NCBI GenBank assembly: GCA_016937155.1
Contig: JAFGWM010000070.1
Span: 1 to 63,284 of the forward strand
Source of the DNA: Deltaproteobacteria bacterium
GTDB lineage: Bacteria; Myxococcota_A; Polyangia; HGW-17
DNA length: 63,284 bases
Direction: 5' to 3'
Shown here: in pieces, positions 4,933 to 62,866 of the stretch
Position numbering within the stretch: position 1 is the stretch's first letter
How the letters are laid out: every line of letters starts with the position of its first letter
The notes under the pieces: model-generated
Seen by the model: only the letters and a program-made list of their open reading frames with translations
What the model was told of the DNA's origin: nothing
Databases searched by the model: none
Made by a program: the position numbers and the translations under genes

Positions 4933-5211
4933 TGATATTTTCTCCTCAACCGAAAAATTATTTTCAGGAACCGTAACCAATTAGTAAAATACAGAGATAA
5001 TTGCAAGATATAAATTCTGAAATCCTACAGGATCTCTCTTTTCTGTTTTTTCTTGCACATCTTTGTGAGATAACCTAAATATCTCAGTTGTCCTCGATGG
5101 CGGATATTTCCTGTAAACTTATTAAAACCGCCATGTTAGCCGAGTATTTGCTCATTTCTCTCATTATGACAAAATATTCAGCGTTATTTATTATAGTAAA
5201 GGAACTGAAAA

Positions 5212-6645: not shown

Positions 6646-6681
6646 TCATGTTAATGCCCGATTAATTCAGGAGACTCTATT

Positions 6682-8783: not shown

Positions 8784-9011
8784 CAATTCTCCTTACTTTA
8801 AGTGTGATAATAAAAATACACATCCGGATTAATCAAGTAGACTTTATAAACCAGACAGAACATCCTTTCCTGAATACTCCAGATTTTTATATACCTGAAT
8901 CTGCAATTGAACTATAGTATTTACAGTTTTATTTTGAACTCGAAATTCAAATAAAACTCTTTTCCTGAACCTTTTGAACGATTATCGAAAACTATTACCG
9001 GGAGGTGTCGT

Positions 9012-10136: not shown

Positions 10137-10152
10137 AACATCACCTCTATTT

Positions 10153-10180
10153 TTGACATAGAGAGATCATAGACTATCCT
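10153..10180 (+). promoter_or_regulatory. Candidate sigma70-type promoter of the zinc-ribbon kinase
   Basis: TTGACA at 10153-10158, 16-bp spacer, TATCCT at 10175-10180. The Shine-Dalgarno GAGGTG starts about 7 nt after the -10 box, so the leader would be very short. Confidence 0.4.
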
Positions 10181-10198
10181 TTCGTCTGAGGTGTTTAG

Positions 10199-12328: not shown

Positions 12329-13470
12329 ATATTTATAACAATTGCATCATCTGCAAGATCCTGAGCCATCTGCATTGTATCAATATTCTTTTCCGCCTGA
12401 ATAACCTGATCCATTTTCGCTTTTGTTTCAGGAGCAGGTGGCATAAACAATGTGCAACTGTCTTCGTGGGGAAGAATACTGATATCGTACGTACCAATTT
12501 TTCTTGCCCATTCAATAGTTTCAGATTTATCCCATGTAACAAGTGGTCTCAGAACAAGCATCGGTGATGCATCGTCAATAGCAATCATATTTTCCAGAGT
12601 CTGAGATGCCACCTGTCCCAGACTTTCACCTGTCACTAAAGCTTTTGCACCATTTCTTGCGGCAATTATCCCGGTGGTTCTCATCATCAGACGACGATAG
12701 AGAATAACCGCAAGTTTATCCGGACGACATTTTCTTAAAATTTTTTGAGCCTCACCATATTTGACAACAGTGAGCTTCATTTGGGCACCCCATTGAGACA
12801 ATACCTTTGAAAGTGATATGGCTTTTTCAAGACTTTCCTCACCAACCCATGGTGGAGAGTAAAATGTCGTCGCATTTATACTGGCCCCCCTTTTGAGCAT
12901 CATATAACCTGCAACAGGAGAATCAATACCAGCACTCAGAAGTAATTCCACAGTTGAACTCACTCCAACAGGGAGACCACCTGGTCCAGGGATTCTTTCC
13001 AGTGAAATAAAAGAAATTTCCTTTCCTATTTCAATTTCAACAATTACTTCTGGATTATGAAGGTCCACTTTTATTCCAGTTTTCGTATGTATCTGACCAC
13101 CAACTTCTGCAGCTATTTCAGGGCTCTTCACCGGAAAACTTTTATCGCTTCGTCTAACTTTCACTTTGAAGGATGAAACACCAGAGTCAGACATTATTTC
13201 CAGACCAGCAGTAATAGCATTTTCCATTGACGGGGAAAACATCACTGCCGGGCTGATTGAGGTTATCCCAAAAACATGTCTGCATGCCTCAATAACTTCC
13301 TTGTTATCATTACTGAATACAAGAAATCTCCCATGTACGCCTTTTAGTTGTGCATGTCCCAGAGGCTCCAGAGCCCTTTTCAGATTATTTCTGAGAGCAC
13401 TTATAAAAAAACTTCTATTTTTACCTTTTAAAAAAATTTCCCCGTACCGGAGAACCACCAGATCATTCAT
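12325..13470 (-). CDS. thiI: tRNA uridine 4-sulfurtransferase ThiI (no rhodanese domain)
   Basis: 381 aa. The N-terminal ferredoxin-like plus THUMP region (about 1-165) is followed by a PP-loop adenylase domain with LLSAGIDSPVAG (178-189). ThiI activates U8 of tRNA with ATP and inserts sulfur; it also feeds thiazole synthesis. The length matches short ThiI proteins without the rhodanese extension, so sulfur must come from another carrier. A conserved Cys lies in SCTLFMP near residue 345. The PP-loop has SAG where SGG is usual. It is last in a minus-strand run, 27 bp after carbamate kinase. Confidence 0.9.
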   Translation of the reverse strand: MNDLVVLRYGEIFLKGKNRSFFISALRNNLKRALEPLGHAQLKGVHGRFLVFSNDNKEVIEACRHVFGITSISPAVMFSPSMENAITAGLEIMSDSGVSSFKVKVRRSDKSFPVKSPEIAAEVGGQIHTKTGIKVDLHNPEVIVEIEIGKEISFISLERIPGPGGLPVGVSSTVELLLSAGIDSPVAGYMMLKRGASINATTFYSPPWVGEESLEKAISLSKVLSQWGAQMKLTVVKYGEAQKILRKCRPDKLAVILYRRLMMRTTGIIAARNGAKALVTGESLGQVASQTLENMIAIDDASPMLVLRPLVTWDKSETIEWARKIGTYDISILPHEDSCTLFMPPAPETKAKMDQVIQAEKNIDTMQMAQDLADDAIVINI

Positions 13471-13497
13471 CGAATCAAGTCCTTAAAAGTTGTCGGG

Positions 13498-14466
13498 TCA
13501 GATTTTACCAACAAAGTGTGTTCCGGTCATACCTGCTAGAGCTTCTCTTAAATGAGAAGGACTTGTTATGAGTGCTCTTTTGCCACCATCCTTAAGGAAA
13601 TTAAGAACAGCAGAAATTTTTGGACCCATTGAGCCTGCAGCAAAATGACCATCATTCTGGAATTTCTCTATCATCTCTATTGTGAGAGCACCAAGTGGTT
13701 GCTGATTTTCCTTGTTATAATTAATATACACCTGTTCAACATCTGTGAGAATAATAAGAAGCTCAGCTCCTACCTGTTTAGCTAAAAGTGCACTGGTCAG
13801 GTCTTTGTCGATTACAGCTTCAACCCCGTGATACTGGGTATTTCCATCATCATCTTTTCTTTTTACTACAGGAATACCACCACCGCCTGCTGCTATAACG
13901 ATGTGACCCTGCTTTGCAGCATCTCTTATGGTGTGCCTCTGAATTACCTTCATTGGAAGAGGTGAAGGAACTATTCTCCTCCATCCACGTCCTGAATCCT
14001 CAGTCACATTCCATCCAAGTTCGTCTCTTCGTCTTTTGGCTTCCCCTTCAGATAAAAATGGACCAATCGGCTTTGTAGGATTCTTAAATGCCTGATCATC
14101 CTCATCAACTATCACCTGAGTGATTTTCGTAACCACGTACCTTGAAATATGTCTTTTTTTCAATTCATTCAGCAATGACTGCTGCATTATGTATCCCAGA
14201 CTACCCTCGGTCATTGCAACCAGTACATCCAGTGGTTGAGATGGAACCTGACTTTGACTGAGCTCATTCTGTATCAGAAGGTTTCCAACCTGAGGGCCGT
14301 TACCGTGTGTGACAATAACATTATATTGGCGTTCAATCAGTTCCATCAGAATATCGCTGATAATCTGTGCACTGATCTGGTGCTCCTCGTGCGTTGCACC
14401 CTTTCCATGTCTCATAAATGCGTGTCCACCAAGTGCCACTACAACAATAGGTTTTTCCTGTGACAT
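13498..14466 (-). CDS. arcC: Carbamate kinase
   Basis: 322 aa, the usual length. Amino acid kinase fold: VVALGGHAF at the N-terminus, VTHGNGPQVGN, AMTEGSLGYIMQQ, VIAAGGGGIPV, a VEAVIDKDLTSALLA segment and GSMGPKISAVLNF near the end. The enzyme interconverts ATP plus carbamate and ADP plus carbamoyl phosphate, usually making ATP from arginine, agmatine or purine fermentation. No arginine deiminase or carbamoyltransferase gene is adjacent. The ATG has GTGAGGA upstream. thiI follows closely. Confidence 0.94.
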   Translation of the reverse strand: MSQEKPIVVVALGGHAFMRHGKGATHEEHQISAQIISDILMELIERQYNVIVTHGNGPQVGNLLIQNELSQSQVPSQPLDVLVAMTEGSLGYIMQQSLLNELKKRHISRYVVTKITQVIVDEDDQAFKNPTKPIGPFLSEGEAKRRRDELGWNVTEDSGRGWRRIVPSPLPMKVIQRHTIRDAAKQGHIVIAAGGGGIPVVKRKDDDGNTQYHGVEAVIDKDLTSALLAKQVGAELLIILTDVEQVYINYNKENQQPLGALTIEMIEKFQNDGHFAAGSMGPKISAVLNFLKDGGKRALITSPSHLREALAGMTGTHFVGKI

Positions 14467-14498
14467 ATTTCCTCACTTTCAAGATTTAATTGAATTTA

Positions 14499-15161
14499 TT
14501 ACTTTTTTGAAGATGTTGATTTATTCATCCAGGTAAGCAGTTCATTGGCCAGAACTTTACCTGCCTCTATGGCTGTATGAGTCAAACGATCACTGTTATT
14601 ACCACTTCTCGTATCAAACGAGTATCCCCATACTACATTCCGGGAAACTCTGTCAATCATAACTCCATAAACATGAAGTTTTAAACTTCCTGAAAATGTA
14701 TTTCCTGTATGAATAATTCCAGAAACCAGAAAGTACCGTGGTGACCATCCGGCAAAACCCTTTTTTTCCAGAACTTCAGATGCTCTCTTCCCAAGAAGGT
14801 CAAGATTGGTGACGAATTCATCCTTATGGGTCTCACCATCAACAGATTTTTCAATATTATTTGTATCTTTTTTAAAAATACTTCTACTGGCGCTGTACAA
14901 TCTGGGAAAGAAATTTCCATAAACCGGAGGAAGATCTTTCCAAAAAATCATATAACTGAATCCACGTTTTCCAAGGTTTGCAGTAATACTTCCACTAAGA
15001 GCTTCAACAACGTATTTATCTTTTATCTTTTCTGACACTTCAGGGGCAAGAACAACAACCCGCTCCTTCCCTGTAAATTTAGTTTTAACTGTGAATTCCG
15101 TAACAGTTTTCGTACAGGAAGATACCAGAAAAATAAGTAGTAATAATGCTGTTTGTCTCAC
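14499..15161 (-). CDS. Hypothetical lipoprotein
   Basis: 220 aa. The lipoprotein signal ends in FLVSSC (C16). The mature part includes FTGKERVVVLAPEVSEKIKD and a C-terminal block with YGVMIDRVSRNVVWGYSF, which resembles envelope lipoproteins that bind or assemble at the outer membrane; no family is firmly recognised. The start is GTG at 15161, only 8 bp after the preceding gene's stop and without a clear Shine-Dalgarno, suggesting translational coupling. Member of the minus-strand run 16339 to 12325. Confidence 0.72.
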   Translation of the reverse strand: MRQTALLLLIFLVSSCTKTVTEFTVKTKFTGKERVVVLAPEVSEKIKDKYVVEALSGSITANLGKRGFSYMIFWKDLPPVYGNFFPRLYSASRSIFKKDTNNIEKSVDGETHKDEFVTNLDLLGKRASEVLEKKGFAGWSPRYFLVSGIIHTGNTFSGSLKLHVYGVMIDRVSRNVVWGYSFDTRSGNNSDRLTHTAIEAGKVLANELLTWMNKSTSSKK

Positions 15162-15169
15162 TTAAGCAG

Positions 15170-15754
15170 TTAATCTTTCTCAATGAACCTGTGTCTGGTC
15201 GTCCAGTCCTTCAGGAACCTGTTAATTACTTTAAGAATTCTGGAGAAATCCATATCACCATAAACATCATTTGACCCTGCATATTTGGGATCTCCACTTT
15301 TCAGTTTATCTGACATTACTTCTTTAAGACTTGTCAATTCGTCGTCATCAATACGACGATCACTCAACACTATTGAATCCGCAACAACATTGGAACCATT
15401 CATGGTGTATGTAAAACTGAAATCAACCGGTACCGGCTCACGGAAATAATGTCCTGTAACTAAAAAGGTGATGGAGCCAAAAGCAAATTTCAATGAAAGA
15501 TTGATAATCTTCCAGCCTTCTGCCATAGCCTCATCCCGTTCGAATTTAAAAATCAAAGGTCTGATCTCTCCTCTGGGGCTGAGATTATCAAACTCAATGA
15601 AATAACTTTCATTGTTATCAGTGAACGTATACCTCTGCACGAAGGAAGTAAGACCACTGGCCTTGAGAATATCCTCACTTGCAGATTGAATATCACTGAG
15701 TTTCAATTCTCTTAAAGGGTTTCCGTCCAATTGAGTGGGATTGATCTGTACCAT
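15170..15754 (-). CDS. Hypothetical protein, paralogue of its upstream neighbour
   Basis: 194 aa, soluble, no signal peptide. Family not recognised. It starts VQINPTQLDGNPLRELKLSD and ends with a short conserved module: LKSGDPKYA, about 10 residues, DMDFSRILKVINRFLKDW. The same module ends the neighbouring 193-aa protein, so they are diverged duplicates. The ATG at 15754 has GGAGAAGGAG upstream, located inside the end of the preceding gene, and the two genes lie 3 bp apart. Likely subunits or partners of one complex; function unknown. Confidence 0.72.
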   Translation of the reverse strand: MVQINPTQLDGNPLRELKLSDIQSASEDILKASGLTSFVQRYTFTDNNESYFIEFDNLSPRGEIRPLIFKFERDEAMAEGWKIINLSLKFAFGSITFLVTGHYFREPVPVDFSFTYTMNGSNVVADSIVLSDRRIDDDELTSLKEVMSDKLKSGDPKYAGSNDVYGDMDFSRILKVINRFLKDWTTRHRFIEKD

Positions 15755-15757
15755 GAC

Positions 15758-16339
15758 TTACGCTTCTCCTTCTCCCTGACTTGTATTTCCGAAATCCTTA
15801 AGATATCTGGTGAGCATCGCCATGATTCCTTCCACATCCAGAGTTGGATACTGATCGGAAAATCTTGCATATTTGGGATCTCCAGATTTAAGTCTTATCT
15901 GGAGCAACTCAAAAAAACTTACACTTCTGGACTGACCATTTGAGTCTGTTACAGTGACCATGTCCTCCGCAGTTTCCCCGGAATCAGTTCTCTGAAATCT
16001 ACTGTGAACCTCAAGGGCACTGGAAATACCAAAAACGCCTTTAATTTCCAGTAAAGCCATTCCTTTTGAGAGATAAACCGTTATAGCACAATGATTCCAT
16101 CCATCAATGACATAACGCTGTGAATCAAGCTCAGGAACAGGAAATTCCACTGGAATTGTAGGTATCCCCGGAAATTTAATCATACTTTTCGGGGAAGTCC
16201 CGATACTTACTCTTACAGAAAAGGGAGAACCAAGATTCTCCACGAGGGGATTACCGAACTGTGCCAGCTCATGAATTGGCACTTTCGCTTCCCTTTCCTG
16301 AAAACCGCCGCCTTCTGTCGGAGATGGCAATCTAAACAT
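15758..16339 (-). CDS. Hypothetical protein, first gene of the minus-strand run, paralogue of the next
   Basis: 193 aa, soluble, predicted mainly beta in its first 130 residues. It shares with the downstream gene a C-terminal module beginning LKSGDPKYA and ending in MAMLTRYLKDFGN. No known family recognised. The ATG at 16339 has an ideal AGGAGG site 5 nt upstream, so this is probably where translation of the five-gene run begins. Function cannot be inferred; the carbamate kinase and ThiI genes downstream may just share transcription. Confidence 0.72.
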   Translation of the reverse strand: MFRLPSPTEGGGFQEREAKVPIHELAQFGNPLVENLGSPFSVRVSIGTSPKSMIKFPGIPTIPVEFPVPELDSQRYVIDGWNHCAITVYLSKGMALLEIKGVFGISSALEVHSRFQRTDSGETAEDMVTVTDSNGQSRSVSFFELLQIRLKSGDPKYARFSDQYPTLDVEGIMAMLTRYLKDFGNTSQGEGEA

Positions 16340-33309: not shown

Positions 33310-34422
33310 TCAGGCAAAGGGATCATAGAAAATTTCATCATCCCTTAATCCCAGATTTTTGAGTGCAGCAATATATGAATTCAGAGCATCGGGATTTCCA
33401 CACAGGTATGACTCCATTCCCTGTGCAGTTTCATAATATTCAGGAAGTATGTTGTTAAGTCTGCCCACTTTTCCTGACCAGTTATCTTCCTCCTCCGGAC
33501 GACTTAGAACCGGAATAAAATTAAAATCAGGAATTAATTTTTCAAGTTCTTCCATTAACTCAGTATTATAAAGGTCATCCCTTTTCCTTGCACCATAGAA
33601 GTATTTAACTTTACGGTTGATACCCCTATGAGCCATATGAGTAAGAATACTCTTAATTGGAGCCATTCCACTGCCAACTGCCATACAAATCATCTCTGCA
33701 TCGGTATCTCTGAGATAAAAATCGCCATACGGGCCATTAAATTTCACAGTATCTCCAACCTTTAGAAATTTATGCACCCAGGTTGTACATATCCCACCAG
33801 GAACGTATTTTATCTCCAAATCGATGAAACCATCATCATCGGGTTTTGAAGCGATACTGTAGGCTCTGTAGACCGCTTCTGGTGTTAAATCATATACTGG
33901 AACTTCCAGTTGAATAAATTGTCCCGCTTTGAATTCTATCTTATCATTTTCAGAAAGTTCCAGTCTTAAACCTTTGATATCCGCAGTAAGATCAACGAGT
34001 GAAACGCACCTGGCCTCAAACTGTCTTATTTTAAAAAGTTCTTCAGGAACGGTAACTTCTAAATCTGCCTTCACTTTCACCTGACAGCATAGTCTGACAT
34101 TATCAGTGATCTCAGACGGTTCAAGAAAAGGCAGTTCTGTTGGAAGAACTTCACCTGCACCGGATTCAATTTTCAGTTTACAAAGTCCACAGCTTCCTCT
34201 ACCTCCACATGCACTTGGTATAAAGATTTGTTCACTCTTAAGAGCACTCAAAAGAGTCTGTCCACCATCTACAATTATTTCTTTTTCATTATTAATTGTA
34301 ATTTTCTTATCACCATAATTACCAATAGTAGCATCAGCAATTACTATCAGAATACTCAATACCGTAGCTATTCCTGAAACTATAAGAACACTCGTTATGA
34401 GATGTCCAAACTGAAAATCCAT
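33310..34422 (-). CDS. nqrF: Na+-translocating NADH:quinone reductase subunit F
   Basis: 370 aa. One N-terminal membrane helix, a plant-type 2Fe-2S domain with C72, C78, C81 and C113 (CGGRGSCGLC...CCQV), an FAD domain with RAYSIAS and a C-terminal NAD-binding domain (GSGMAPIKSILTHM, YLCGNPDAL). This subunit takes electrons from NADH. The start is the ATG at 34422, preceded by GGAG. The layout and length match NqrF; Rnf has no such subunit, which settles the NQR assignment. Confidence 0.93.
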   Translation of the reverse strand: MDFQFGHLITSVLIVSGIATVLSILIVIADATIGNYGDKKITINNEKEIIVDGGQTLLSALKSEQIFIPSACGGRGSCGLCKLKIESGAGEVLPTELPFLEPSEITDNVRLCCQVKVKADLEVTVPEELFKIRQFEARCVSLVDLTADIKGLRLELSENDKIEFKAGQFIQLEVPVYDLTPEAVYRAYSIASKPDDDGFIDLEIKYVPGGICTTWVHKFLKVGDTVKFNGPYGDFYLRDTDAEMICMAVGSGMAPIKSILTHMAHRGINRKVKYFYGARKRDDLYNTELMEELEKLIPDFNFIPVLSRPEEEDNWSGKVGRLNNILPEYYETAQGMESYLCGNPDALNSYIAALKNLGLRDDEIFYDPFA

Positions 34423-34465
34423 TGCAAACTCCACTGATGATTAATTTTCCCAAAAGGGTTGCTTC

Positions 34466-35059
34466 TCATATCTTTATCATTCCAGTAAAACCCATAAATG
34501 CCATGGACATAATTCCGGCAATAATAAGGGTAATCCCTGCGCCTTCGAGACCTCCAGGAACTCTTGAACGTTTCATATTCTGCCTGATACCAGCCATTGC
34601 AACAATTGCAACCATCCAGCCGATACCGCTGCCAAGACCATAAGCAACACTTGATACAAGTGTATATTTTCTTATAATCATAAATAGACTGACTCCCAGA
34701 ATTGCACAGTTCACTGTTATCAGAGGAAGAAAAATTCCAAGGGCATTATAGAGTTTTTCACTGACTCTTTCTATAATCATTTCAACTATCTGAACAAATG
34801 CTGCAATTACAATTATGAAAACAATATATTTAAGATAAACAAGTTTAAAAGGTATCAGCACATAGTAGTATACCAGCCAGTTTAATGCACTGGTTGTTGT
34901 TATAACAAAAACCACAGCCAGTCCCAGTCCTACTGCGGTTTTAACCTGTTTGGAAACAGCAAGAAACGAACACATTCCCAGATACAGAGTTAACAAAATA
35001 TTGCTTGTAAATATTGCTGCAAAAAAAATTGCAAAAGTTCCAGGAGAGCTACCTTCCAT
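34466..35059 (-). CDS. nqrE: Na+-NQR subunit E
   Basis: 197 aa, six membrane helices. Signature stretches: [40 protein letters not shown] and [20 protein letters not shown], close to the NqrE consensus and including the buried Cys that helps hold an iron centre in NQR. The start is the ATG at 35059, 6 nt after AAGGAGG, which overlaps nqrD by 11 bp; an upstream start giving six extra basic residues is less likely. Confidence 0.94.
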
Positions 35060-35666
35060 TTGACGCCTCCTTTTCAACTAAAATTCGGCCTTTAACAATC
35101 CAGATAAAAATCGCCAGCATAAAAAACGCTCCGGGAGCCATTACCATAATTGACCATTTTACCCACCAGCTACCCAGAACCACCTGACCCCAGACAGTAC
35201 CACTTCCCATAAGTTCCCTGAAAAAAGCTATCAGCAGTAAAACCCAGGAATAGCCTACTCCTGAGCTTAAACCGTCAACCAGAGATATTCCTGGTGTATT
35301 TTGCATAGCGAAGGCTTCTGCTCTACCCATAATGATACAGTTTGTAATTATAAGACCAACATATGGTCCCAGCTGCCTTGCTATTTCAGGAACCTGAGCT
35401 TTAAGCATTATCTCGACTATAATTACCCAACTGGCAATAATAAGAGTCGAAACCATCATTCTGATTCTTGTGGGTATAAATCTGCGAAGAAGAGAAACCG
35501 TAAAATTTGAAAGAGCTGTTGTAAATATCAGCCCAATGGCCATAACCAGAGTATTTTTCAAAACATTGGTAACTGCAAGGGTTGAGCAGATTCCAAGAAT
35601 TTGAACAAATACCGGATTGTCGCGTCCCAGATTTGAAAAAACAACATTTGAAGTTCTGGAACTCAT
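35049..35666 (-). CDS. nqrD: Na+-NQR subunit D
   Basis: 205 aa, six membrane helices. [20 protein letters not shown] and [18 protein letters not shown] are diagnostic NqrD/RnfE blocks, and the second holds the counterpart of the NqrE Cys. Next to nqrE and nqrF this is NqrD. Its start shares its first base with the last base of nqrC. Confidence 0.93.
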
Positions 35667-36265
35667 CAGTCACTTCCCTTTCTGATGACAGTTGAAATTT
35701 TTACAAGTGCATTATTAACAATATCCTTCACTGCAGTGGATGTCACTGTTGCTCCGGTGATTGCATCAAATTGTGTTTTTGCAACAGTTCCGGTACCTTC
35801 AGGAACCATTGTTACCGGACCGGTTTTCCCAATGAACTGTTTTTTAAACCACGACTCACTTATACGTGCCCCAAGTCCCGGTGTTTCACTCTGAGAAATA
35901 AAGTTGATACCTGTAATAGTTTTTTTGTCTGATTTAAAACCTATCAGTGTGACAATTTCACCCCATAAACCCGGTCCACTCACCTTTAAAACGTAAAATA
36001 AATTTTTTCCATCCCTGACAGTGTAGTAAGGATTTGCTGTTTTATGATATTTTACTTTATTTTCATAAAAGTTATTCAGTTCTTTTATTGAAGTGGGAAA
36101 ACTAAGTGGAGTGCAACCAAGAAGGGCTTTTCTGAAAAAAACCGCTTCATTTCTCATAATGGTATCCTTTGTCAGCAAATGAACTGTACTGACCGCACCA
36201 ATGAAAACAGCGCTTAAAAGAGCCATAAAGACAACTGTTTTTATTCTCATGGATGCTTTCCCCAT
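35666..36265 (-). CDS. nqrC: Na+-NQR subunit C (short, covalent FMN)
   Basis: 199 aa. One N-terminal helix and a periplasmic domain ending in DAITGATVTSTAV; T173 in TGAT is the predicted covalent FMN site. The length is nearer RnfG than the classical NqrC of about 250 aa. The ATG overlaps the nqrB stop (TAATG). Electrons pass from NqrF through this flavin in the enzyme's relay. Confidence 0.88.
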   Translation of the reverse strand: MGKASMRIKTVVFMALLSAVFIGAVSTVHLLTKDTIMRNEAVFFRKALLGCTPLSFPTSIKELNNFYENKVKYHKTANPYYTVRDGKNLFYVLKVSGPGLWGEIVTLIGFKSDKKTITGINFISQSETPGLGARISESWFKKQFIGKTGPVTMVPEGTGTVAKTQFDAITGATVTSTAVKDIVNNALVKISTVIRKGSD

Positions 36266-37221
36266 TATATATCCCCTTTCAGTGCTTTTGCTTTTCTGGA
36301 AAGTTTATACTGAGAAATTCCATAATCGGTTATAGGGGCAAAGGTATTACCCAGAAGTATCGCAAACATCATGCCTTCCGGCCATACTGAAAATACTCGT
36401 ATCAGAACGGTCATTATTCCAATGAAAAGACCATACAGAATTTTACTTTCATTCTGTTTGGGTGCACTAACAGGATCTGTTGCCATAAAAAACATTCCCA
36501 GAACAAATCCTCCACTAAGAAATGCCGCTAAAGGATTTACAGTTGTTCTTACACCCAGAAGCCAGAATATACCCTGCATTCCTACCATTCCCAGAAAGGT
36601 TGAAATGACAATGGATCTATTGGCAATTTTTTTCCAGAACAGGTAGATACCTCCAAGAAAAAGCAGTATTGCACTGGTTTCACCTAATGATCCTGAAATA
36701 TTTCCAATGGCAGCATGGAGATACCAGGAATTATCCACAACAGTGGATGTTTTTAGAAAGGTTGCAGCAGTCACTGCATCAGGAGTATATTTAGAAAATC
36801 CTCCAAACAGCCCATTAGCAGGAACATACCATCTGGAAGTCATATGCTGGGCAAACGTGATATATATAAATGCTCTTCCCACTAAAGCAGGATTAAAAGG
36901 GTTCTTTCCAAAACCGCCAAAAACCATCTTTCCAAACACCACTCCGAATACTGCACCAACAGCAGCCATCCAGAAAGGAAGTGAAGGCGGAAGTGTCATA
37001 GCAAGTAAAAGACCTGTTACAAAAACACTGCTGTTAACAGGTTCGTCATAATGGCGGGCAAATAAATATTCTGAAATATATGCTGCGGATACTGTAACAG
37101 CAATGAGAATAAATGCTCTCCAACCATAAAAGTAAACACTGGCAAGAGCAGCCGGGAAAAGTGCATACAAAACTTTTTTCATAGGAAGTAGCCACATTAT
37201 TCGTTTTTTGGGAGCCATCAT
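36265..37221 (-). CDS. nqrB: Na+-NQR subunit B (short form)
   Basis: 318 aa, about nine membrane helices, with FGGFGKNPFNPALVGRAFIY and FFMATDPVSAPKQN, standard NqrB/RnfD blocks. The covalent FMN site SGAT is present as T151-A-A-T154. It is shorter than classical NqrB (usually over 400 aa) and so RnfD-sized. The first ATG overlaps the stop of the upstream HMA gene. Carries the main transmembrane Na+ path and the quinone-near flavin in known complexes. Confidence 0.88.
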   Translation of the reverse strand: MMAPKKRIMWLLPMKKVLYALFPAALASVYFYGWRAFILIAVTVSAAYISEYLFARHYDEPVNSSVFVTGLLLAMTLPPSLPFWMAAVGAVFGVVFGKMVFGGFGKNPFNPALVGRAFIYITFAQHMTSRWYVPANGLFGGFSKYTPDAVTAATFLKTSTVVDNSWYLHAAIGNISGSLGETSAILLFLGGIYLFWKKIANRSIVISTFLGMVGMQGIFWLLGVRTTVNPLAAFLSGGFVLGMFFMATDPVSAPKQNESKILYGLFIGIMTVLIRVFSVWPEGMMFAILLGNTFAPITDYGISQYKLSRKAKALKGDI

Positions 37222-37451
37222 TTTTCCTCTGAATCGCCGGAAACCAACTCACTCCCATGCCCCAGAATGAAAGTTATTTCCTGAAATTTTTCAAGTACAT
37301 CTTCATCACCGTTATAATCCAGATGAATTATTCCATTTGCAGAATCCACATAGACCTCTTCCACACCTTTAATTTTTCTACCATTTCGCTCAATCGCATA
37401 AGAACACGAACTGCAATGACCACCGGTAAATGAAAAAACCGCCTTACTCAT
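37218..37451 (-). CDS. Heavy-metal-associated (HMA) domain protein
   Basis: 77 aa. A single ferredoxin-like HMA domain, with metal ligand pair GGHCSSCSYAIE and the beta strand EEVYVDSANGIIHLDYNG. HMA proteins bind Cu+ or related soft metals. Start at ATG 37451, with GAGGTG upstream; a GTG three codons earlier is too close to that site. First gene of the NQR run and overlapping nqrB by 4 bp, in the place where nqrA is usually found. Role in the complex (metal insertion?) is a guess. Confidence 0.82.
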   Translation of the reverse strand: MSKAVFSFTGGHCSSCSYAIERNGRKIKGVEEVYVDSANGIIHLDYNGDEDVLEKFQEITFILGHGSELVSGDSEEK

Positions 37452-37582
37452 TACTAACACCTCTAATCATAAACATACCCGCTACACTATCCAATGCCCC
37501 TGATCAGATCAATTAAAAAAATTCAGAAATTACTGAAAACAGAAAGATATTTACATTTTATTTACTTGATTTAAATAATTAT

Positions 37583-38416
37583 TTATAGACTCATGTTCCG
37601 ATTAAGCCGAATGATACGCTTATCCATATATTTTCTGAGTTTTCGGCCGCTATCCCCGTTTATCATACCATTTCTGACACTTTCAACATCAGTAATGATA
37701 CTTCCGGCAAGCTCAGTCACATGTGTATTAAGAAATGGAATTGTGGATAAAGGAGTGGTGGGGCCAGCCAGTATAAATTTTTGTCCGGTTTTTACAAGTT
37801 TATCAATATCATCAAAGGTATCGTTTACAATTGTGGTACCCGTAGCAATAATAATATCACATTCCGGCAGTAGTTCAGGCTCGCAACTGATGGGCAATAC
37901 ATCAGGATGATCAATTAGCTCAAAAATATACACTTTTCTGGAATACTTTTTAAGTTTTTCCATAACAGGGGAAAAATATCCAATAATACCACAGACCATA
38001 TCAGGTTGTATTTCAAGTTCTTCTATAAAATTAATATTTTCAAATCCCTCATTCAGTTTCATGCATAATGCGTTTATTCCAGCTAAAGCAAGAGATGAGT
38101 TCAGTGAATCGTGAGAACCAAGTTGTTCTGTAAGTTCACATAAATATTTCCCCTTCCATATCTGATTCTTTTCATCAGTATGGATTTTAATATTTTTGAT
38201 TGTGGTATCAGTTTTAAAATCTCTATAATTCCCAGTCTGGAGGTTACAACTTCCAGGCCTGATATTACCTTCCCAGGTTTTTTGATAGTGCATAGCAGTG
38301 CCGGCTTTTTGCGTTTCAAGAATTACCATCGTGCTTGAAACTCCAACAATGACTTCACTGATTTTTTCGTTCTGACCTATAGTTCTTGCAAATTTCTTTA
38401 AACTTTCGCTGATCAT
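37583..38416 (-). CDS. DUF364-family putative metal-chelating protein
   Basis: 277 aa, soluble. Matches the DUF364/DUF4213 pattern: an N-terminal EVIVGVSSTMVILET and SLALAGINAL region, then a Rossmann-like half with VCGIIGYFSPVMEKLKKYSR, PECDIIIATGTTIVNDTFDD and FILAGPTTPLSTIPF. The family is annotated as putative heavy-metal chelation on structural grounds. The ATG has CGGAG upstream. Divergently transcribed from the TonB receptor across a 91-bp region with a Mo-box-like palindrome. Confidence 0.78.
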   Translation of the reverse strand: MISESLKKFARTIGQNEKISEVIVGVSSTMVILETQKAGTAMHYQKTWEGNIRPGSCNLQTGNYRDFKTDTTIKNIKIHTDEKNQIWKGKYLCELTEQLGSHDSLNSSLALAGINALCMKLNEGFENINFIEELEIQPDMVCGIIGYFSPVMEKLKKYSRKVYIFELIDHPDVLPISCEPELLPECDIIIATGTTIVNDTFDDIDKLVKTGQKFILAGPTTPLSTIPFLNTHVTELAGSIITDVESVRNGMINGDSGRKLRKYMDKRIIRLNRNMSL

Positions 38417-38440
38417 GACACTCCGTTTTAAGTTTGACCT

Positions 38441-38464
38441 CGTTATAAATTCGTGTTAATAACG
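38441..38464. promoter_or_regulatory. Mo-box-like inverted repeat (candidate ModE operator)
   Basis: CGTTAT at 38441-38446 and ATAACG at 38459-38464 form perfect 6-bp arms, 12 bp apart. Known ModE operators in enteric and Rhodobacter genes have outer CG-TATAT / ATATA-CG arms with similar total length (about 24 bp). It lies between the divergent DUF364 and TonB receptor genes, and a TTGACC at 38434-38439 suggests overlap with a promoter. Confidence 0.45.
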
Positions 38465-38507
38465 ACTAGAGTTCTCTTATATCACAACAGAGATTCTTTT
38501 TAAACAT

Positions 38508-40538
38508 ATGCTTCCTGAATTTTTTATTATTCTAATACTGTTGACCAGTTCCCCAAAAGTGGATTCTCTTTCATCAGAAGATGACACACGTATCACCGTG
38601 AAGGGAAAAAGATTTAAATCTTCACGACTTGTTATTTCAAAGACAAAACTGGATGAAGAAATAAAAACTAATCTTGCATCCACTCTCATTGATATTCCTG
38701 AAATTGACATTTTATGGTCGCCTAAAAGTGGTGCATCAATTCAGGCATCTGGATTTGATGAGCGTTCTTTTAAAATATTTGTTATGGGTATCCCCTTTTC
38801 CGAAAGTTACAGTGGTCATCTGGATATTTCTGGAACTGAAAGAGGATTATTTTCCAGAATTGAATTTTCAACTGGAATCAGTTCACTCCTTAATGGACCT
38901 TCAAGTGCAGGAGGTGTATTGAACCTCACACCTAAAAGCAAATGCAATAAACACTCAATAACCGGAATCTTCAAAACCGGAAATTTTAACAGTTTACATC
39001 CTGATTTTTACACAGGTCTGAATGGATGTTCAAATTATAAAAATTCACATTTCAATATTGCAGTTTCTTATAATAACACTTCAGGCTACACATTACCTGA
39101 CAAGTTCAAGACCGATGGAATATATGCCCAATACCATGAAGATGGTGGAGTAAGAAATAAAAGTGCAGCCAGACGTTTCAATTTATCATTTCATTCTTCG
39201 CACACACTGAATTCATTTAATACCATTGACTTTTTCAGTGGATACTCCAGTTCACCAAGACAAATACCAACTTTTGAAAGTTCAAATTATGTGAGATACT
39301 GGTCATTTTCTGAATATTCAAGTCTTTTTGCTGCTGCTGTATGGAAAAAAAAATTCATTAATACAAAATTGGTAAATCTTAACGTTTCTTCTTTTCTTCA
39401 TTTACATACTGACGAACTGATTGACCATGGCGATCCTTCATATTCCGGAATAACCACGGATTCGCTGGCATGGTTTGCGAAAAGCTCTTATGAAAATTTC
39501 ACAGCAGGGATTTCTTTAATGCCTGAATTCAGACCATGGGATGACGGGTCTGTAATTTTTAAAATCCAGCATAAATTTGATCAGCACCTGCAAAGAGAAT
39601 TATCCGTTCAATCATACATTGATGGCGGATCCTATGATCCCTGGGAAAAATTCCACGCTCAAACCTCCACAGCTGTATTTTCCTATAATCATGATTTGAA
39701 ATTTTGTGTTGTGAATATGGAATCATCCATCAGTTTTATGGCCCTAACCGCAAGGGAAATAAAAAATGTAAGTTATGAAACTATGGAAAGAAAAATTCCA
39801 GGCACTGAACTTAGATTGAAAATCTCCAGGATGTGGTCATCTAACATATTGACAGAATTGTCAGTGGGGAAAAAGATAAGATATCCGACGCTGAAAGAAT
39901 TGTTCACCAATCATCTTGGAGGAAATCCGGACCTTGATGCTGAAACCGCATATATGAGTGATTTATCCGCAGTTTGGAAAAAAACTTGCGGTGTATCAGG
40001 TTTTCAAATCAGAACCAGGTTATTTCATCACCTGATAAATAACATGATAACCAGTTATGGTGATAGTTTCAGTAATACAGGTCATTCTCAAATAAGTGGT
40101 GGAATTCTTTCCGCTGCATTCAAACGGAAATTCATTATTGGAACGCCGGTGGTTTTTCAGGCTACCGGATCATTCAGAGAACTCTATACAAGGGATCTGG
40201 ATACAAACCGCCCACTTGATTACCGACCTTCACACTCATTCAAATCGTCCCTGACAATAAAACTTCCAAGTTTTTTCACAGTTTCAGCTGATTTGAAGTG
40301 GTATTCAAAACAGTATGCCTGGTGGTACGACACTGTAACATCCACATGGATAAAAGATATTCTACCCAATGGACTGATTACTTCATTTCTCATTTCTGCT
40401 CCCGTTTATAAAAATGCAGCAGTAACAATTTCCATTTTTGCTCAACTGACCAACGCTCTGGATACCATTTATATGTCCGGCTCCCTTGAACCAAGAGCTG
40501 GCAGGACTTTATTTACAGGGATTAAAGGTAAACTTTAA
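38508..40538 (+). CDS. TonB-dependent outer-membrane receptor
   Basis: 676 aa. Short export signal (1-20), then a TonB-box-like ITVKGKR, a plug domain (about 45-145: STLIDIPEIDILWSPKSGAS, IEFSTGISSLLNGPSSAGGV) and a 22-strand-type barrel of alternating aromatic/polar strands ending in F-T-G-I-K-G-K-L. Blocks RYPTLKELFTNHLGGNPDLD and DYRPSHSFKSSLTIKLPSFF are typical of siderophore/cobalamin-type receptors. No strong Shine-Dalgarno seen. The next gene, 18 bp downstream, is a lipoprotein. Substrate is likely a metal complex, given the neighbours. Confidence 0.86.
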   Translation: MLPEFFIILILLTSSPKVDSLSSEDDTRITVKGKRFKSSRLVISKTKLDEEIKTNLASTLIDIPEIDILWSPKSGASIQASGFDERSFKIFVMGIPFSESYSGHLDISGTERGLFSRIEFSTGISSLLNGPSSAGGVLNLTPKSKCNKHSITGIFKTGNFNSLHPDFYTGLNGCSNYKNSHFNIAVSYNNTSGYTLPDKFKTDGIYAQYHEDGGVRNKSAARRFNLSFHSSHTLNSFNTIDFFSGYSSSPRQIPTFESSNYVRYWSFSEYSSLFAAAVWKKKFINTKLVNLNVSSFLHLHTDELIDHGDPSYSGITTDSLAWFAKSSYENFTAGISLMPEFRPWDDGSVIFKIQHKFDQHLQRELSVQSYIDGGSYDPWEKFHAQTSTAVFSYNHDLKFCVVNMESSISFMALTAREIKNVSYETMERKIPGTELRLKISRMWSSNILTELSVGKKIRYPTLKELFTNHLGGNPDLDAETAYMSDLSAVWKKTCGVSGFQIRTRLFHHLINNMITSYGDSFSNTGHSQISGGILSAAFKRKFIIGTPVVFQATGSFRELYTRDLDTNRPLDYRPSHSFKSSLTIKLPSFFTVSADLKWYSKQYAWWYDTVTSTWIKDILPNGLITSFLISAPVYKNAAVTISIFAQLTNALDTIYMSGSLEPRAGRTLFTGIKGKL

Positions 40539-40556
40539 ATATGAAAGGAATATAAA

Positions 40557-41192
40557 ATGAAAAAACTTTTAATTTTCACACTATCGGTATTTTCGTTTCT
40601 TCTCATTCAGTGTACTGGGGATACACCGGATGAAAGTACTTCTGAATATACATTTATGGATGGGGAAGATGCTGACTGTGAGTTTGACCGATTAACTTTT
40701 TCACTTCCTTCGGGAATCATTGAAGTATCTATAAATGGATTGATGGTTGAAGAAATGAATGGCGCCAATAAACTCACAGCTGACACAGTGGAAACTGTAA
40801 CAAGACGTGGAGTCCGTTTTTCAGATATCTTTTCACTTGCCGGTATCAGTTTACCTGATGAGACACCGGTTAACTGCATAGCAAGAGACGGATATGATCC
40901 TCTGAGAACTAAACTTGAGGGAGATATCTCAAAACTTCCCACTTTTGGATTCCTCAGAGATTACGGATATATTTATGTTGGAAATCCTGGAGACAAGGAT
41001 CCACTTTATCCTGAAATGGAAGGTAAAACTCTTATGGTTGACTATGATATTGAAGATGAAGGGGAAATTCCAGAATATTTAGGAGGAACCCTTGCATCTC
41101 TTGGTATCTTCCGATGGATGATGGTTGAATATATGGATGAAAATCAATTCGGAATTTTCGAAATGAATCTTGAGTCAACTAATGAGGATTAG
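40557..41192 (+). CDS. Lipoprotein, possible substrate-binding partner of the TonB receptor
   Basis: 211 aa. Lipoprotein signal ends at C19 (LLIQC). After an acidic linker comes a compact domain with VTRRGVRFSDIFSLAGISLP and VNCIARDGYDPLRTKL, which faintly recalls the molybdopterin-binding oxidoreductase fold (RGV.L.DLL...V...A.DGY), though catalytic or cofactor ligands cannot be assigned. A run of Asp/Glu follows near the C-terminus. AAAGGAATA precedes the ATG. It overlaps the convergent ModE-like gene by 14 bp. Confidence 0.7.
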   Translation: MKKLLIFTLSVFSFLLIQCTGDTPDESTSEYTFMDGEDADCEFDRLTFSLPSGIIEVSINGLMVEEMNGANKLTADTVETVTRRGVRFSDIFSLAGISLPDETPVNCIARDGYDPLRTKLEGDISKLPTFGFLRDYGYIYVGNPGDKDPLYPEMEGKTLMVDYDIEDEGEIPEYLGGTLASLGIFRWMMVEYMDENQFGIFEMNLESTNED

Positions 41193-41523
41193 ATTCAACA
41201 AATATTTCATTGAATTTTTCATTTGAAAAAGAAGTTATCTGCTGATGAAGATGTTCAAATTTCTCGATAAATGCAATACCTTCAGGAGTGACAAAACTGT
41301 TTCCACCTCTGATGCCACCTCTGGTACGAATAACAAGACTGTATCCAAGGGCCTTCTCAAGCCTGTCTATTATTTTAACTGCCTTGGGATAGGACATTTT
41401 CATCTGCATTGCACTTTTTCTAACACTTCCAAATTGTTCCACACCCCTAAGAAGCCAAACCAGACCTATTCCCATGAAGGAGCCATCATCATCGTTTAGT
41501 GAAATTTTTACACGAACTTTCAA
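41179..41523 (-). CDS. Stand-alone ModE-type winged-helix regulator
   Basis: 114 aa from a TTG at 41523 with GGAGG 5 nt upstream. Carries the ModE N-terminal domain: GLVWLLRGVEQFGSVRKSAM, MSYPKAVKIIDRLEKALGYS, LVIRTRGGIRGGNSFVTPEG. In E. coli ModE this domain binds DNA, and a C-terminal molbindin domain binds molybdate. That second domain is absent here, as in many stand-alone relatives. A longer frame to 41841 exists but runs over the divergent gene and lacks support. It probably controls this island; a palindrome sits at its start. Confidence 0.8.
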   Translation of the reverse strand: MKVRVKISLNDDDGSFMGIGLVWLLRGVEQFGSVRKSAMQMKMSYPKAVKIIDRLEKALGYSLVIRTRGGIRGGNSFVTPEGIAFIEKFEHLHQQITSFSNEKFNEIFVESNPH

Positions 41524-41533
41524 TTTAACCTCC

Positions 41534-41553
41534 AGTAATGTTACGTCATTACT
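41534..41553. promoter_or_regulatory. Operator-like palindrome between the ModE-type regulator and the NTPase gene
   Basis: AGTAATG at 41534-41540 and CATTACT at 41547-41553 are perfect 7-bp arms around TTACGT. The site lies next to the regulator's Shine-Dalgarno and 17 bp before the divergent NTPase start, fitting autoregulation of both genes. Confidence 0.5.
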
Positions 41554-41569
41554 TTTACAGGTACATATA

Positions 41570-43042
41570 ATGATTTTCAAGACTTCATATATTATTGTGA
41601 CTGGCAGCATAGGAGTTGGAAAAACCACTTTTCTTAATACTGTCTCCGGAAAATTGAAATCTCCACATGTCAAAGGCATTACCTTCACCGCACCATTTGC
41701 CAGAAACAAGGAACCTTCAAATATATATTTTTTTAACCCTATTGGCATTCCCTCTGAAAACGAAATATGGGCTAAAAGAAACACTGATAAAACATGGAAT
41801 TTCAATTTTGACAGTTTAAATAAATATACTTCAATTCTCATCAGTTATCTTGAAGAGCATAGGCTTTCCACTCTCATTCTTGATGATATTGGTCCACTTG
41901 AACTTCAAAATAATGGCTTCAATTCTATTATGAATTCAATTGATAACTACTTGATTCAGACAGTTATAATTGGAGTTAAAAAATCATTTATTACTGATAT
42001 TACAGATAAATTTAAAATAGAAAATCCATATGTAATAGATCTTGATCAAACCACTTCCGAAGATGCAATGACTCAGTGTTCAGAAATATTTAAACAGCAG
42101 TATATAAAAAACACCGGAATATTTTCGGGATATACTGCAATAGTGGAAACAGGTTTCGGTTCTCTGGCCCATGCATGGAAAATTCCTCTAAGAGGTCACA
42201 TTTTGTCAACAATTCAGGCAATTATGCTTATTTCATTCGGAGGATTTACCAAGGGAAAAGGAATTTTCAGGATATCCTTCCTGACAGCATTCCTGAAAAT
42301 ATTTTCTCCACTTCATAACCCTATAAAACCCATGTTTTTTATTTGGCTTCAAGGTAGTATCCTGGCAACACCAATATATTATCTGGGGTGGAATATTTTT
42401 TCAGTTATTGCTGGAAGCGTATTAATGGGTTGGAGCGTAACGGCATTTTCTCTGGCCACAAATTATCTTCTTTTCGGTGAAATATGGTTTACAGCAATAA
42501 ATAATCTTTCTCGTGTAATTTTCAGAGCATTTGCCTTTAACGGTGGATTTTTCCATCTAATTTTATTTCTATTGGTTTTAAAAGCCCTTATTTCATCAGT
42601 TTTTGGATTTCTTTCATATAAAGGCTATTTTATTACCAGAATAAACAGAATAAAAACAAAAAATCACAGTGTAATAAAAAATAAATACGGAAAAAGTAAA
42701 AAATCAAATTTAGAAAGTATGAAAGGAGCATTTAAGGATTTTTTAAAACCTGGCTTTTTTATCCTTTGGTCTCTTTCCATTGTTGTAATTATACTCTTAA
42801 CTCAAAACAGCACATTTCAGATTATTCTTACGGTATTAAGAAGTCTGGCAGTAACCCTGATACTGTTTTTTATGATAAGAAAAATCGATATAAATAAACT
42901 GACTGAAAAACTTGAAAAAGGGAAAAACACAGAGATAAAGCAATCAATTATTCATAGTCTGGCAGTGATGCAGGGTACGGAAAACAAGGATAAAACTCAG
43001 GAAAGTGAAGCATCTTCTGAAAGCTCAGTTATTCTCTCCTGA
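41570..43042 (+). CDS. P-loop NTPase fused to a polytopic membrane domain
   Basis: 490 aa from the ATG at 41570. Residues 1-190 are a THEP1/DUF265-like NTPase: Walker A GSIGVGKTT (12-20), Walker B LILDDIGPLEL and VVIIGVKK-like strand. Residues about 205-440 hold six or seven hydrophobic helices, including LRGHILSTIQAIMLISFGG, LTAFLKIFSPLHNPIKPMF and SVLMGWSVTAFSLATNYLLF, which recall ECF-type transporter membrane components. A charged C-terminal tail follows. An in-frame extension to 41474 would overlap the divergent regulator and is not used. Its last 46 bp overlap the convergent Lon-like gene. Confidence 0.7.
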   Translation: MIFKTSYIIVTGSIGVGKTTFLNTVSGKLKSPHVKGITFTAPFARNKEPSNIYFFNPIGIPSENEIWAKRNTDKTWNFNFDSLNKYTSILISYLEEHRLSTLILDDIGPLELQNNGFNSIMNSIDNYLIQTVIIGVKKSFITDITDKFKIENPYVIDLDQTTSEDAMTQCSEIFKQQYIKNTGIFSGYTAIVETGFGSLAHAWKIPLRGHILSTIQAIMLISFGGFTKGKGIFRISFLTAFLKIFSPLHNPIKPMFFIWLQGSILATPIYYLGWNIFSVIAGSVLMGWSVTAFSLATNYLLFGEIWFTAINNLSRVIFRAFAFNGGFFHLILFLLVLKALISSVFGFLSYKGYFITRINRIKTKNHSVIKNKYGKSKKSNLESMKGAFKDFLKPGFFILWSLSIVVIILLTQNSTFQIILTVLRSLAVTLILFFMIRKIDINKLTEKLEKGKNTEIKQSIIHSLAVMQGTENKDKTQESEASSESSVILS

Positions 43043-60616: not shown

Positions 60617-62516
60617 AAAGGTACACAGTACTACTGCAACGGCGAAGGAGGCAGCGATGGCACTGGCTTCCTTTTCAGCACCGCCCAGGAGCCAGCAGGG
60701 CTCAATTGTGAAGCCGGTGGAATTGTCATAAATGGTGGCTCAGATATTGACGGTGATGGTATACTGGATCCGGAAGAAATCACAGATACACAGTACGTAT
60801 GCAATGGGGTGAGCTCATCTGATCATAACAGTCTGGTAGTGCTCAGTGAAGAAATTGCCGGGGCAAACTGCACCTATGGAGGTGTCGGTATTAGAAGCGG
60901 TCTGGATGATAATGGAGATGGTCTGCTTCAACCAGAAGAAGTGGAATCCACAACTTACGCATGTAACGGGGTTCCAGGCACAAATGGAACTGATGGCGTA
61001 AATAGTCTGGTAGACATTGCAACGGAGACCGCAGGCTCCAATTGTGCTGCTGGTGGGTTCAAGGTTCAGTGCGGCCCGGATATTGATGGATCTGGCTTAC
61101 TTGATTCCGGCGAAGTAAATTCGACAAACCACATATGTCATGGGGAGGATGGGAAGCGTTCTCTGGTGGCGGTTGCATCCGAATCTGCCGGTGGAAACTG
61201 CCCGACAGGGGGTTACCTAATCAAGAACGGTCTGGACACAAACGGGAACGGTATCCTCGACTCTGCCGAAGTATTGGCTTCATCATATGTATGCCATGGA
61301 AGCAGCGCATTAATGCGTACATCAAATGCCCCCTGGGGAGGAGTCTGCCAGCGTGGAGGTCTTCGGATTGAGACGGGGATCGACGAAAACACCAATGGCA
61401 TACTTGATGACAGTGAAGTAGATTATATTCAATACGTCTGCAACCTTTTTGTATCCGGTATCAGTGCAGGAATGAATTCCACCTGTGTATTGCTCTCGGA
61501 TAGCACGGTGAAGGCGGTCAACTGGGGGATGGCACAACCACCAATCGTCTCGTGCCTGTTGCGGTCTCCGGTCTGACCGGGGCAACCCGTATTACCGTTG
61601 GAGGTTATCATGCTTGTGCACTGATTTCAGGAGGCAAGTTGAAATGTTGGGGGTACAACGATGACGGACAATTAGGTGATGGTACCACCATTGATCGTCA
61701 TATGCCAGTATCTGTGACTGGTCTCGGTGATATTCTGGTTGCAACACAGATTTCTGCTGGTTTGTATCACACTTGTGCAGTTTTTTCCAATGGGGAAGCA
61801 AGATGCTGGGGATACAACAACTTTGGGCAATTAGGCGATGGTACGACTACCAGTCGGTCAACACCTGTCCTTGTGGCACATTCCCCATTTTCTCAAATCG
61901 ATTCAGGTCAATACCATACATGTGGTATTACTGACTGGAATTACGCGATGTGCTGGGGTACCAATGATCACGGTCAACTGGGGGATGGTACAACTACAAA
62001 TCGTACGACTCCCGTCCTGGTAAATGGTCCATTGGAATCATCACAGATATCAGTTGGAGCAACATTCACATGCAGCCACAAATCCACAGGAACAGCACAA
62101 TGCTGGGGTCTTAACAACCGGGGCCAACTTGGGGACGGTACAACTACTACCCGTACTTCACCGAGCAACGTATTCGGCCTCAGTACTGTAACTGAAATTA
62201 TTGCTGGTGAAGGCGCTGCTTGCGCACGAAAATCAGACAAAACGGCCAGTTGCTGGGGTAATAACGAATATGGCGAGTTAGGGGACGGCACAACAACATC
62301 AAGAACCACACCAGTCTCCGTGATCGGATTGACAAATCAGCTATTTCGAGAACTTTTTCTCATACCTGTTCACTTGGATCCGACGCCACAGTACACTGCT
62401 GGGGAAAAAACGACTATGGAAAACTGGGCGATGGCTCAACAACCAATAGAAGCAGGCCTGTTCTTTCTGCTGAGTCCGGATTTCCTCAGTTACCTGATGA
62501 TGTTTCGAAAGTTTAA
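60617..62516 (+). pseudogene. Decayed repeat-domain / RCC1-like protein gene (missing start, two frameshifts)
   Basis: A single protein can be followed through three frames. Frame 1 (60617 to about 61510, no start codon after the upstream TGA) encodes about five repeats of roughly 48 aa with pattern GxNC..GG..I..G.D.NGDGILD..EV....YVCNG. At about 61505-61515 homology shifts to the next frame with loss of the C-W-G part of an RCC1 repeat; RCC1 repeats (CWGxNxxGQLGDGTTTxRxxPV) then run from 61552 to about 62335. A second shift at about 62335-62340 continues the last repeat (HTCSLGSD, CWGKNDYGKLGDGS) to TAA at 62514-62516. Probably a former secreted repeat protein. Confidence 0.8.
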
Positions 62517-62712
62517 CGGAGCGTGCAGCAAGAAGTTGACCTATCTCATCAATAAGTGTATCATTTCCAGCAATTATACTCCGGAATGCATCTTTATGAA
62601 TTATGTAACATTCGGTATCTTCGGTGGAAATTATAATTGCTGTGCATTTTTCCCCGGTCATGATGGACTTTTCACCAAAAAATTAATATTGCCCAAGATT
62701 TGCAACGGTTTT
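62515..62712 (-). pseudogene. Remnant of a cyclic-nucleotide-binding domain gene
   Basis: On the minus strand, KPLQILGNIN (to about 62683) and, one frame over, FFGEKSIMTGEKCTAIIIST followed by CYIIHKDAFRSIIAGNDTL and IDEIGQLLAARS form the second half of a cNMP-binding domain: the FFGE motif and C-helix region. The frame breaks in a T run near 62678-62685. It lies between the end of the RCC1-type pseudogene and the minisatellite, so both ends are truncated. Confidence 0.6.
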
Positions 62713-62738
62713 CTCTTTTGCCCCCTGATTTCCCTGCC

Positions 62739-62866
62739 TTCCTGCTTCCTTTCTCCCTGACCTGTCTCCTGTCTCCATGCTCCATGCTCCTGTTTCCCTG
62801 CTCCTGCTCCATGCTCCTGCTCCATGCTCCTGTTTCCCTGCTCCTGCTCCATGCTCCTTTTTCCAC
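62739..62866. repeat. C/T-rich minisatellite, 40-bp period
   Basis: The block 62781-62857 has about 1.9 copies of a 40-bp unit built from tccatgctcctgtttccctg, ctcctgc and a 13-bp sub-unit tccatgctcctgc. Degenerate ctgcttcc/ctcctgtctcc repeats extend left to about 62739. Both strands have open frames through it, but the predicted peptides (repeated EQEHG/MEQ) look like non-coding translation. Confidence 0.85.

Follow-up and report, generated by a model that had tools for sequence, protein, structure and literature searches.

Five genes, for a DUF4213/DUF364 protein, a TonB-dependent outer-membrane receptor, a lipoprotein, a single-domain ModE regulator and an NTPase-membrane fusion, form one conserved unit (Table 1) in the window, which is the whole stretch of 63,284 nucleotides that was analysed and belongs to a 4.1 Mb MAG (G000). 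This combination of parts has no match in the libraries or papers searched. The island probably serves Mo/W enzymes, and as a whole it is tentatively read here as a ModE-controlled envelope import line with a molybdopterin-type cofactor or pterin-metal cargo that supplies molybdoenzymes, a reading to which we give somewhat less than an even chance.

Table 1. Features of the island and their positions in the window
Feature	Position	Strand	Length	Remark
DUF4213/DUF364 gene	37583..38416	-	277 aa	
Mo-box	38441..38464	no strand		between divergent DUF364 and receptor genes
TonB-dependent outer-membrane receptor gene	38508..40538	+	676 aa	
lipoprotein gene	40557..41192	+	211 aa	18 bp behind receptor gene
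single-domain ModE gene	41179..41529	-	116 aa	
NTPase-membrane fusion gene	41570..43042	+	490 aa	40 bp from ModE start

Conserved gene order and probable ModE control

The preliminary description had taken the five genes for one unit, and this is borne out: all five are found where it had placed them, and the whole set recurs in identical order and orientation in L010 (genome G001) and L011 (G002). L015 (G007) keeps the order with four genes, and its contig ends within the DUF364 gene, of which just the start is present, and L008, L012 and L013 hold partial islands at contig ends, with such parts as the contigs allow. As the order recurs in related Myxococcota with proteins that are only 26-61% identical, it reflects more than chance. 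A scan of 84,980 species genomes gave at least 12 loci, a count that is a lower bound because one short peptide pattern served as the query. The NTPase-membrane gene probably starts at 41570; a longer open reading frame from 41474 would run into the ModE gene. A perfect inverted repeat, AGTAATG-TTACGT-CATTACT (41534-41553), lies within the 40 bp between these two genes and is not conserved in L010.

The regulator had been described as a ModE DNA-binding domain without molbindin, and it is one: the protein matches TIGR00637 with E = 6e-14 over model positions 2-90 of 100, under the curated cut-off, gives no molbindin match and ends at 116 aa. The regulator is conserved in L008, L010, L011, L015, L020 and L023, four relatives match the same model at 8e-16 to 3e-17, and single-domain ModE is known in Desulfovibrio (PMC545781). 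The Mo-box of the island, CGTTATAAATTCGTGTTAATAACG, has the architecture CGTTAT-N12-ATAACG, identical to that upstream of E. coli modA (L095, 1047-1070), and in its core agrees with the ModE consensus from the literature, ATCGNTATATA-N6-TATATANCGAT (PMC545781). It does not occur in 100 shuffles of the window and has one exact copy in the 4.1 Mb genome, which is the island site itself, so that the Mo-box-like site of the preliminary description can be retained. G002 also contains just one exact copy, which lies in L011 between the genes for the DUF364 protein and the receptor. The relaxed form CGNTAT-N12-ATANCG, of which about 0.005 are expected per window, stands upstream of the receptor gene in L015, in L023 and, if one mismatch is allowed, in L010. 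A Mo-box thus precedes the receptor gene in five loci (the window, L010, L011, L015 and L023).

No Mo-box was found near modABC in the regions read of G000 and its genus-mate G001, and the island box therefore looks like a local regulon. Control by a cobalamin or Moco riboswitch was rejected, as the Rfam search of the window and six related loci gave three tRNAs only and no riboswitch of any family, which leaves ModE as the only control element seen. The island is probably repressed by the single-domain ModE at one predicted Mo-box, where repression is the sign of control that we infer. With the ModE regulon and ModABC of E. coli and Geobacter the island shares the ModE-type HTH and the Mo-box spacing of the modA operator, but its ModE has no molybdate-binding domains, ABC subunits are absent, and the genome's own modABC lies elsewhere. 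That the unit corresponds to no Mod or Tup ABC system also agrees with the family searches, in which none of the five proteins matched ModABC, TupABC or WtpABC families (SBP, BPD permease, ABC ATPase).

Molybdenum enzymes, cofactor genes and distant relatives

Xanthine dehydrogenase-type Mo hydroxylases were found in all eight family genomes, and the two in G000 supply the Mo/W-enzyme genes that were to be looked for there; the one checked reached 678 bits with the XdhA model, below the cut-off of 780. A bis-MGD-type oxidoreductase was found in none of the eight genomes. Tungsten-type AOR occurs in six of the eight, and as none was found in G000 or G001, a tungsten role is unlikely in the host and was rejected for it, also in view of the two Mo hydroxylases. 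From the earlier proposal of molybdate or tungstate, the Mo/W link thus stands, with Mo-enzyme neighbours and the Mo-box on its side, while its tungsten part is unlikely for this host. The absence of modABC was also considered as a reason for the island and had to be dropped: G000 has a full modABC (TIGR01256 and TIGR02141 above cut-off), and the island is therefore not its replacement.

G000 further has moaA, moaC, moeA and a gene for a MOSC/MogA-type protein. Its MoaA (L098, 583-1479, on contig C85) has a shortened C-terminal part and scores below the TIGR02666 cut-off, and the short moaA adjoins moaC and a MOSC-MoCF fusion, an arrangement that is the same in G001 (L097). In a survey that covered MoaA, MoaC and MoeA, none of the three proteins was found in G002, G004, G005 and G007, which all hold the island or its NTPase-membrane gene together with Mo hydroxylases and AOR, and in three of them (G002, G004, G007) there is no clear ModA either. 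Outside the family, G407 and G410 have the NTPase-membrane gene and three Mo hydroxylases each, with no MoaC found, but MoaC is present in further genomes that have all or part of the island (G057, G033, G249, G271, G406, G408, G409), and G006 (87% complete) and G010 (97%) are counterexamples with Mo hydroxylases, without MoaC and with no island detected. The family is represented by MAGs that are 70-97% complete, and as Moco genes can cluster, which they do in G003 (L062), one missing contig can remove several of them. With one cluster per genome, the chance of missing all Moco genes in G002, G004, G005 and G007 is about 8e-4, or 3e-3 without G005, where both values are a rough product of the incompleteness values and no formal test. 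The association of the island with missing Moco genes is suggestive and rests on MAGs.

In distant genomes, homologues mostly do not scatter without their neighbours, as the parts of the island remain associated with one another or with genes for Mo enzymes. The pair of DUF364 and NTPase-membrane genes is found also in Bdellovibrionota, where the receptor and lipoprotein genes do not adjoin the NTPase-membrane gene. In G057 (L014) the pair is flanked by genes for FdhD on one side and formate dehydrogenase on the other, a MobA-type protein is encoded farther along, and in L027 (Oligoflexia) and L028 (Bdellovibrio) it is found together with XdhC. ModE accompanies the NTPase-membrane fusion in L020 and L023, in the latter behind a short receptor-lipoprotein open reading frame, G271 (L038) has the receptor and the lipoprotein only, and at L019 a W-type AOR lies 7 kb off. 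As XdhC, FdhD, MobA and formate dehydrogenase are neighbours in distant genomes, the Mo/W link is real.

Some of these loci have features of their own. The short reading frame of L023 (7995-8456) joins the receptor start to an apparent lipoprotein end behind an intact Mo-box at 7931, which looks like an internal deletion or an assembly fault. L016 of G033 (8347-13709) contains an unfused relative of the island, composed of an NTPase-SAM methyltransferase fusion, a lipoprotein-like protein, a TonB receptor, ModE and a stand-alone membrane protein. Distant lipoprotein relatives, some with two domain copies, are encoded in L039 (G227, 4900-9177) and L040 (G016, 5000-10165) next to genes whose products look like OprP-type porins, and in L039 formate dehydrogenase genes are seemingly about 5 kb away. 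Beside the DUF364, NTPase-membrane and XdhC genes of L027, positions 12042-16134 encode FmdE (- strand), a FecCD permease, an ATPase, a binding protein and NikR, so that this locus may mix Mo and Ni functions.

Component proteins and possible cargo

The DUF364 protein is well assigned by Pfam (PF04016, 103.3 bits against a gathering cut-off of 23, E 1.2e-29; DUF4213, E 1.1e-9) and is related to the solved 3npg and 3l5o (Dhaf4260), with a domain match over about 110-155 residues. These two share the DUF364 domain with it but are structures of unknown function, whereas the island protein belongs to an envelope system that is probably under ModE control. In the structure paper, a derivative of flavin or pterin and the uptake of metal were suggested for DUF364, and the genome context includes Mo, W and V transport (PMC2954201). 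The protein of the island is probably a cytoplasmic enzyme with a pterin- or metal-related substrate.

The lipoprotein belongs to no Pfam family, identity within its own family is 54-61%, none of ten members has an Oxidored_molyb match, and the sequence has no significant match among solved structures. Its AlphaFold2 model, made from ten sequences (pLDDT 74, pTM 0.73), is best matched in the PDB by PruR of Agrobacterium and then of Vibrio (7kou, 7kom), with a weak match to 7kou (probability 0.89, E 0.053, TM-score 0.53 by PruR length); the sulfite-oxidase folds of YedY and nitrate reductase follow further down the list and are weak as well. PruR is a periplasmic protein without Mo-ligating cysteine that binds tetrahydromonapterin-type pterins and probably is unable to hold Moco (PMC13259868). 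Like PruR, the lipoprotein is extracytoplasmic, has a tentatively predicted sulfite-oxidase-like fold and no evident Mo-ligating cysteine, and its invariant Asp111 with an aromatic residue at 113, matched by eye, resembles the D/N-x-aromatic motif of PruR, Asn/Asp102 and Tyr104 (PMC13259868), but there is no match between the two at the sequence level. The model makes the lipoprotein a candidate periplasmic ligand binder.

A pterin alone explains both the lipoprotein fold and the missing Moco genes, and the ligand quite possibly carries a pterin or Moco, though we would not call this probable. Against such a cargo stand the moaA, moaC, moeA and modABC genes of the window genome, the Mo hydroxylase genomes G006 and G010, in which neither MoaC nor the island was found, the incompleteness of the MAGs, the weakness of the structural matches, the probable inability of PruR itself to hold Moco, and the Bdellovibrionota loci, where receptor and lipoprotein genes do not accompany the NTPase-membrane gene. 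Free Moco is unstable outside proteins, which counts against Moco as the cargo.

The cargo could instead be a molybdate or tungstate chelate, i.e. a molybdophore or another metal complex, that is bound by the receptor and the lipoprotein, carried by the NTPase-membrane protein and released or chelated by the DUF364 protein. Control by ModE at a Mo-box would suit this alternative, as would the metal-transport context of DUF364 (PMC2954201) and the FecCD-type ABC transporter, FmdE and NikR near the L027 group, and as G002, G004 and G007 have no clear ModA, the island could be their metal source. However, it leaves unexplained why MoaA, MoaC and MoeA are missing in genomes with Mo/W enzymes, the island has no metallophore synthesis genes, modABC coexists with it in the window genome, and the modelled lipoprotein resembles a pterin binder and not an oxyanion binder. 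The chelated oxyanion of the preliminary description is thus a possible cargo, though not a likely one; the predicted fold of the lipoprotein and the failure to detect Moco genes in several island-bearing genomes speak more for a pterin-type cofactor.

The NTPase-membrane fusion has an NTPase_1 domain (PF03266, 41.5 bits against a cut-off of 23.9, E 1.6e-10) with the P-loop GSIGVGKTT, and a membrane domain for which no match was found in Pfam. Relatives are 26-41% identical to the window protein, and six of 13 family members have a DUF2478 match. In the AF2 model (pLDDT 83), Foldseek relates the NTPase part to THEP1 (1ye8) and the membrane part weakly to the ECF S-component 5edl (probability 0.91, TM-score 0.45 by target length, E 0.25); EcfT and EcfA partners were not found in the island. 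The P-loop NTPase domain is common to the fusion and the THEP1/DUF2478 NTPases, but in the island it is fused to a membrane domain, and G033 encodes NTPase and membrane part separately and has its NTPase joined to a methyltransferase. A literature search for a link of DUF2478/THEP1 with molybdenum gave nothing relevant. By its modelled parts the fusion is a candidate inner-membrane translocator.

The receptor has a Plug domain (Pfam, 33 bits against a cut-off of 23.9, E 9.2e-8) and orthologues in L010, L011, L015 and L038 that are 26-38% identical to the window protein. Its best NCBIfam matches are BtuB models, which together with the weak S-component resemblance of the membrane part could point to another cofactor or vitamin, e.g. 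a corrinoid, that enters by a BtuB-like receptor under ModE control as a back-up or partner of Mo enzymes. Yet the BtuB scores are far below cut-off (29.3 of 599.7 bits for TIGR01779, 36.7 of 836 bits for PRK10641), neither the window nor the six related loci have a cobalamin or other riboswitch, and the neighbours elsewhere are Mo-enzyme genes, all of which makes such a cargo improbable. Like the island, BtuB/BtuCDF-type uptake has a TonB receptor, then a periplasmic binder and then an inner-membrane step, but the latter is one NTPase-membrane fusion in the island and not an ABC importer, and the island binder has a predicted sulfite-oxidase-like fold. Pterin-sensing signalling like in the PruR-DcpA pathway instead of uptake, for which the PruR-like predicted fold would speak, is very improbable, as PruR has DcpA or a sensor kinase as partner whereas the lipoprotein has a TonB receptor and regulation by ModE, no DcpA-type or sensor-kinase gene was found either in the island or in those syntenic loci that were read, and the proteins that are encoded instead, the TonB receptor and the polytopic NTPase-membrane fusion, are typical transport parts.

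Proposed import line and remaining features of the window

In the import line that we tentatively propose, low Mo or cofactor status would take ModE off the Mo-box, and the receptor-lipoprotein pair and the DUF364 protein would be made. The TonB receptor would then bring in a scarce ligand across the outer membrane, the lipoprotein with its PruR/sulfite-oxidase fold would hold it in the periplasm, the NTPase-membrane fusion would move it through the inner membrane, and the DUF364 protein would process it in the cytoplasm. Most likely the ligand would be Moco, molybdopterin or a pterin-metal complex, which cells could use in addition to Moco synthesis and molybdate uptake of their own, or in some relatives instead of these; as moaA, moaC, moeA and modABC are present in the window genome, import would be a supplement there. 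We infer the direction of transport, the identity of the ligand and the role of each protein from the assembled parts, and the route through outer and inner membrane that was suggested before agrees with them, as the parts for it are present without Mod or Tup ABC subunits.

TonB-dependent cofactor uptake and ModE regulons are already known kinds of systems. No bacterium is known to import the finished Mo cofactor or its pterin part, and an incomplete search of the open literature turned up no bacterial Moco importer; confirmation of one would establish a new kind of system. That the island is such a dedicated importer, for the mature Mo/W cofactor or molybdopterin, and that some bacteria can thereby dispense with cofactor synthesis of their own for Mo/W enzymes, is conceivable but rather doubtful. 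The route by which Caenorhabditis elegans obtains Moco from the bacteria that it eats is unknown (PMC9793310), as is the way in which pterins pass bacterial membranes (PMC13259868). If such a cofactor is indeed imported under ModE control, members of microbial communities would share Moco as a nutrient, the presence of molybdoenzymes in genomes that lack Moco genes would be explained, and a testable role would be found for DUF364, for the NTPase-membrane fusion and for the family of the lipoprotein. Even with a metal-chelate cargo, the island would give Mo a way across both membranes that differs from Mod, Tup and Wtp.

Next to the island, at 33310-37460 on the - strand, the window has a Na+-NQR/Rnf-like operon with nqrF, nqrE, nqrD, rnfG/nqrC and rnfD/nqrB, which is headed by a gene for a small HMA heavy-metal protein (37218-37460). 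Neither nqrA nor rnfB/rnfC was seen beside it, its scores fall between the Nqr and Rnf models, and it may be an Nqr-Rnf intermediate. Farther along, at 60809-62760, two overlapping open reading frames in different frames encode DUF7151 repeats and then RCC1 repeats, and are probably one gene with a frameshift.
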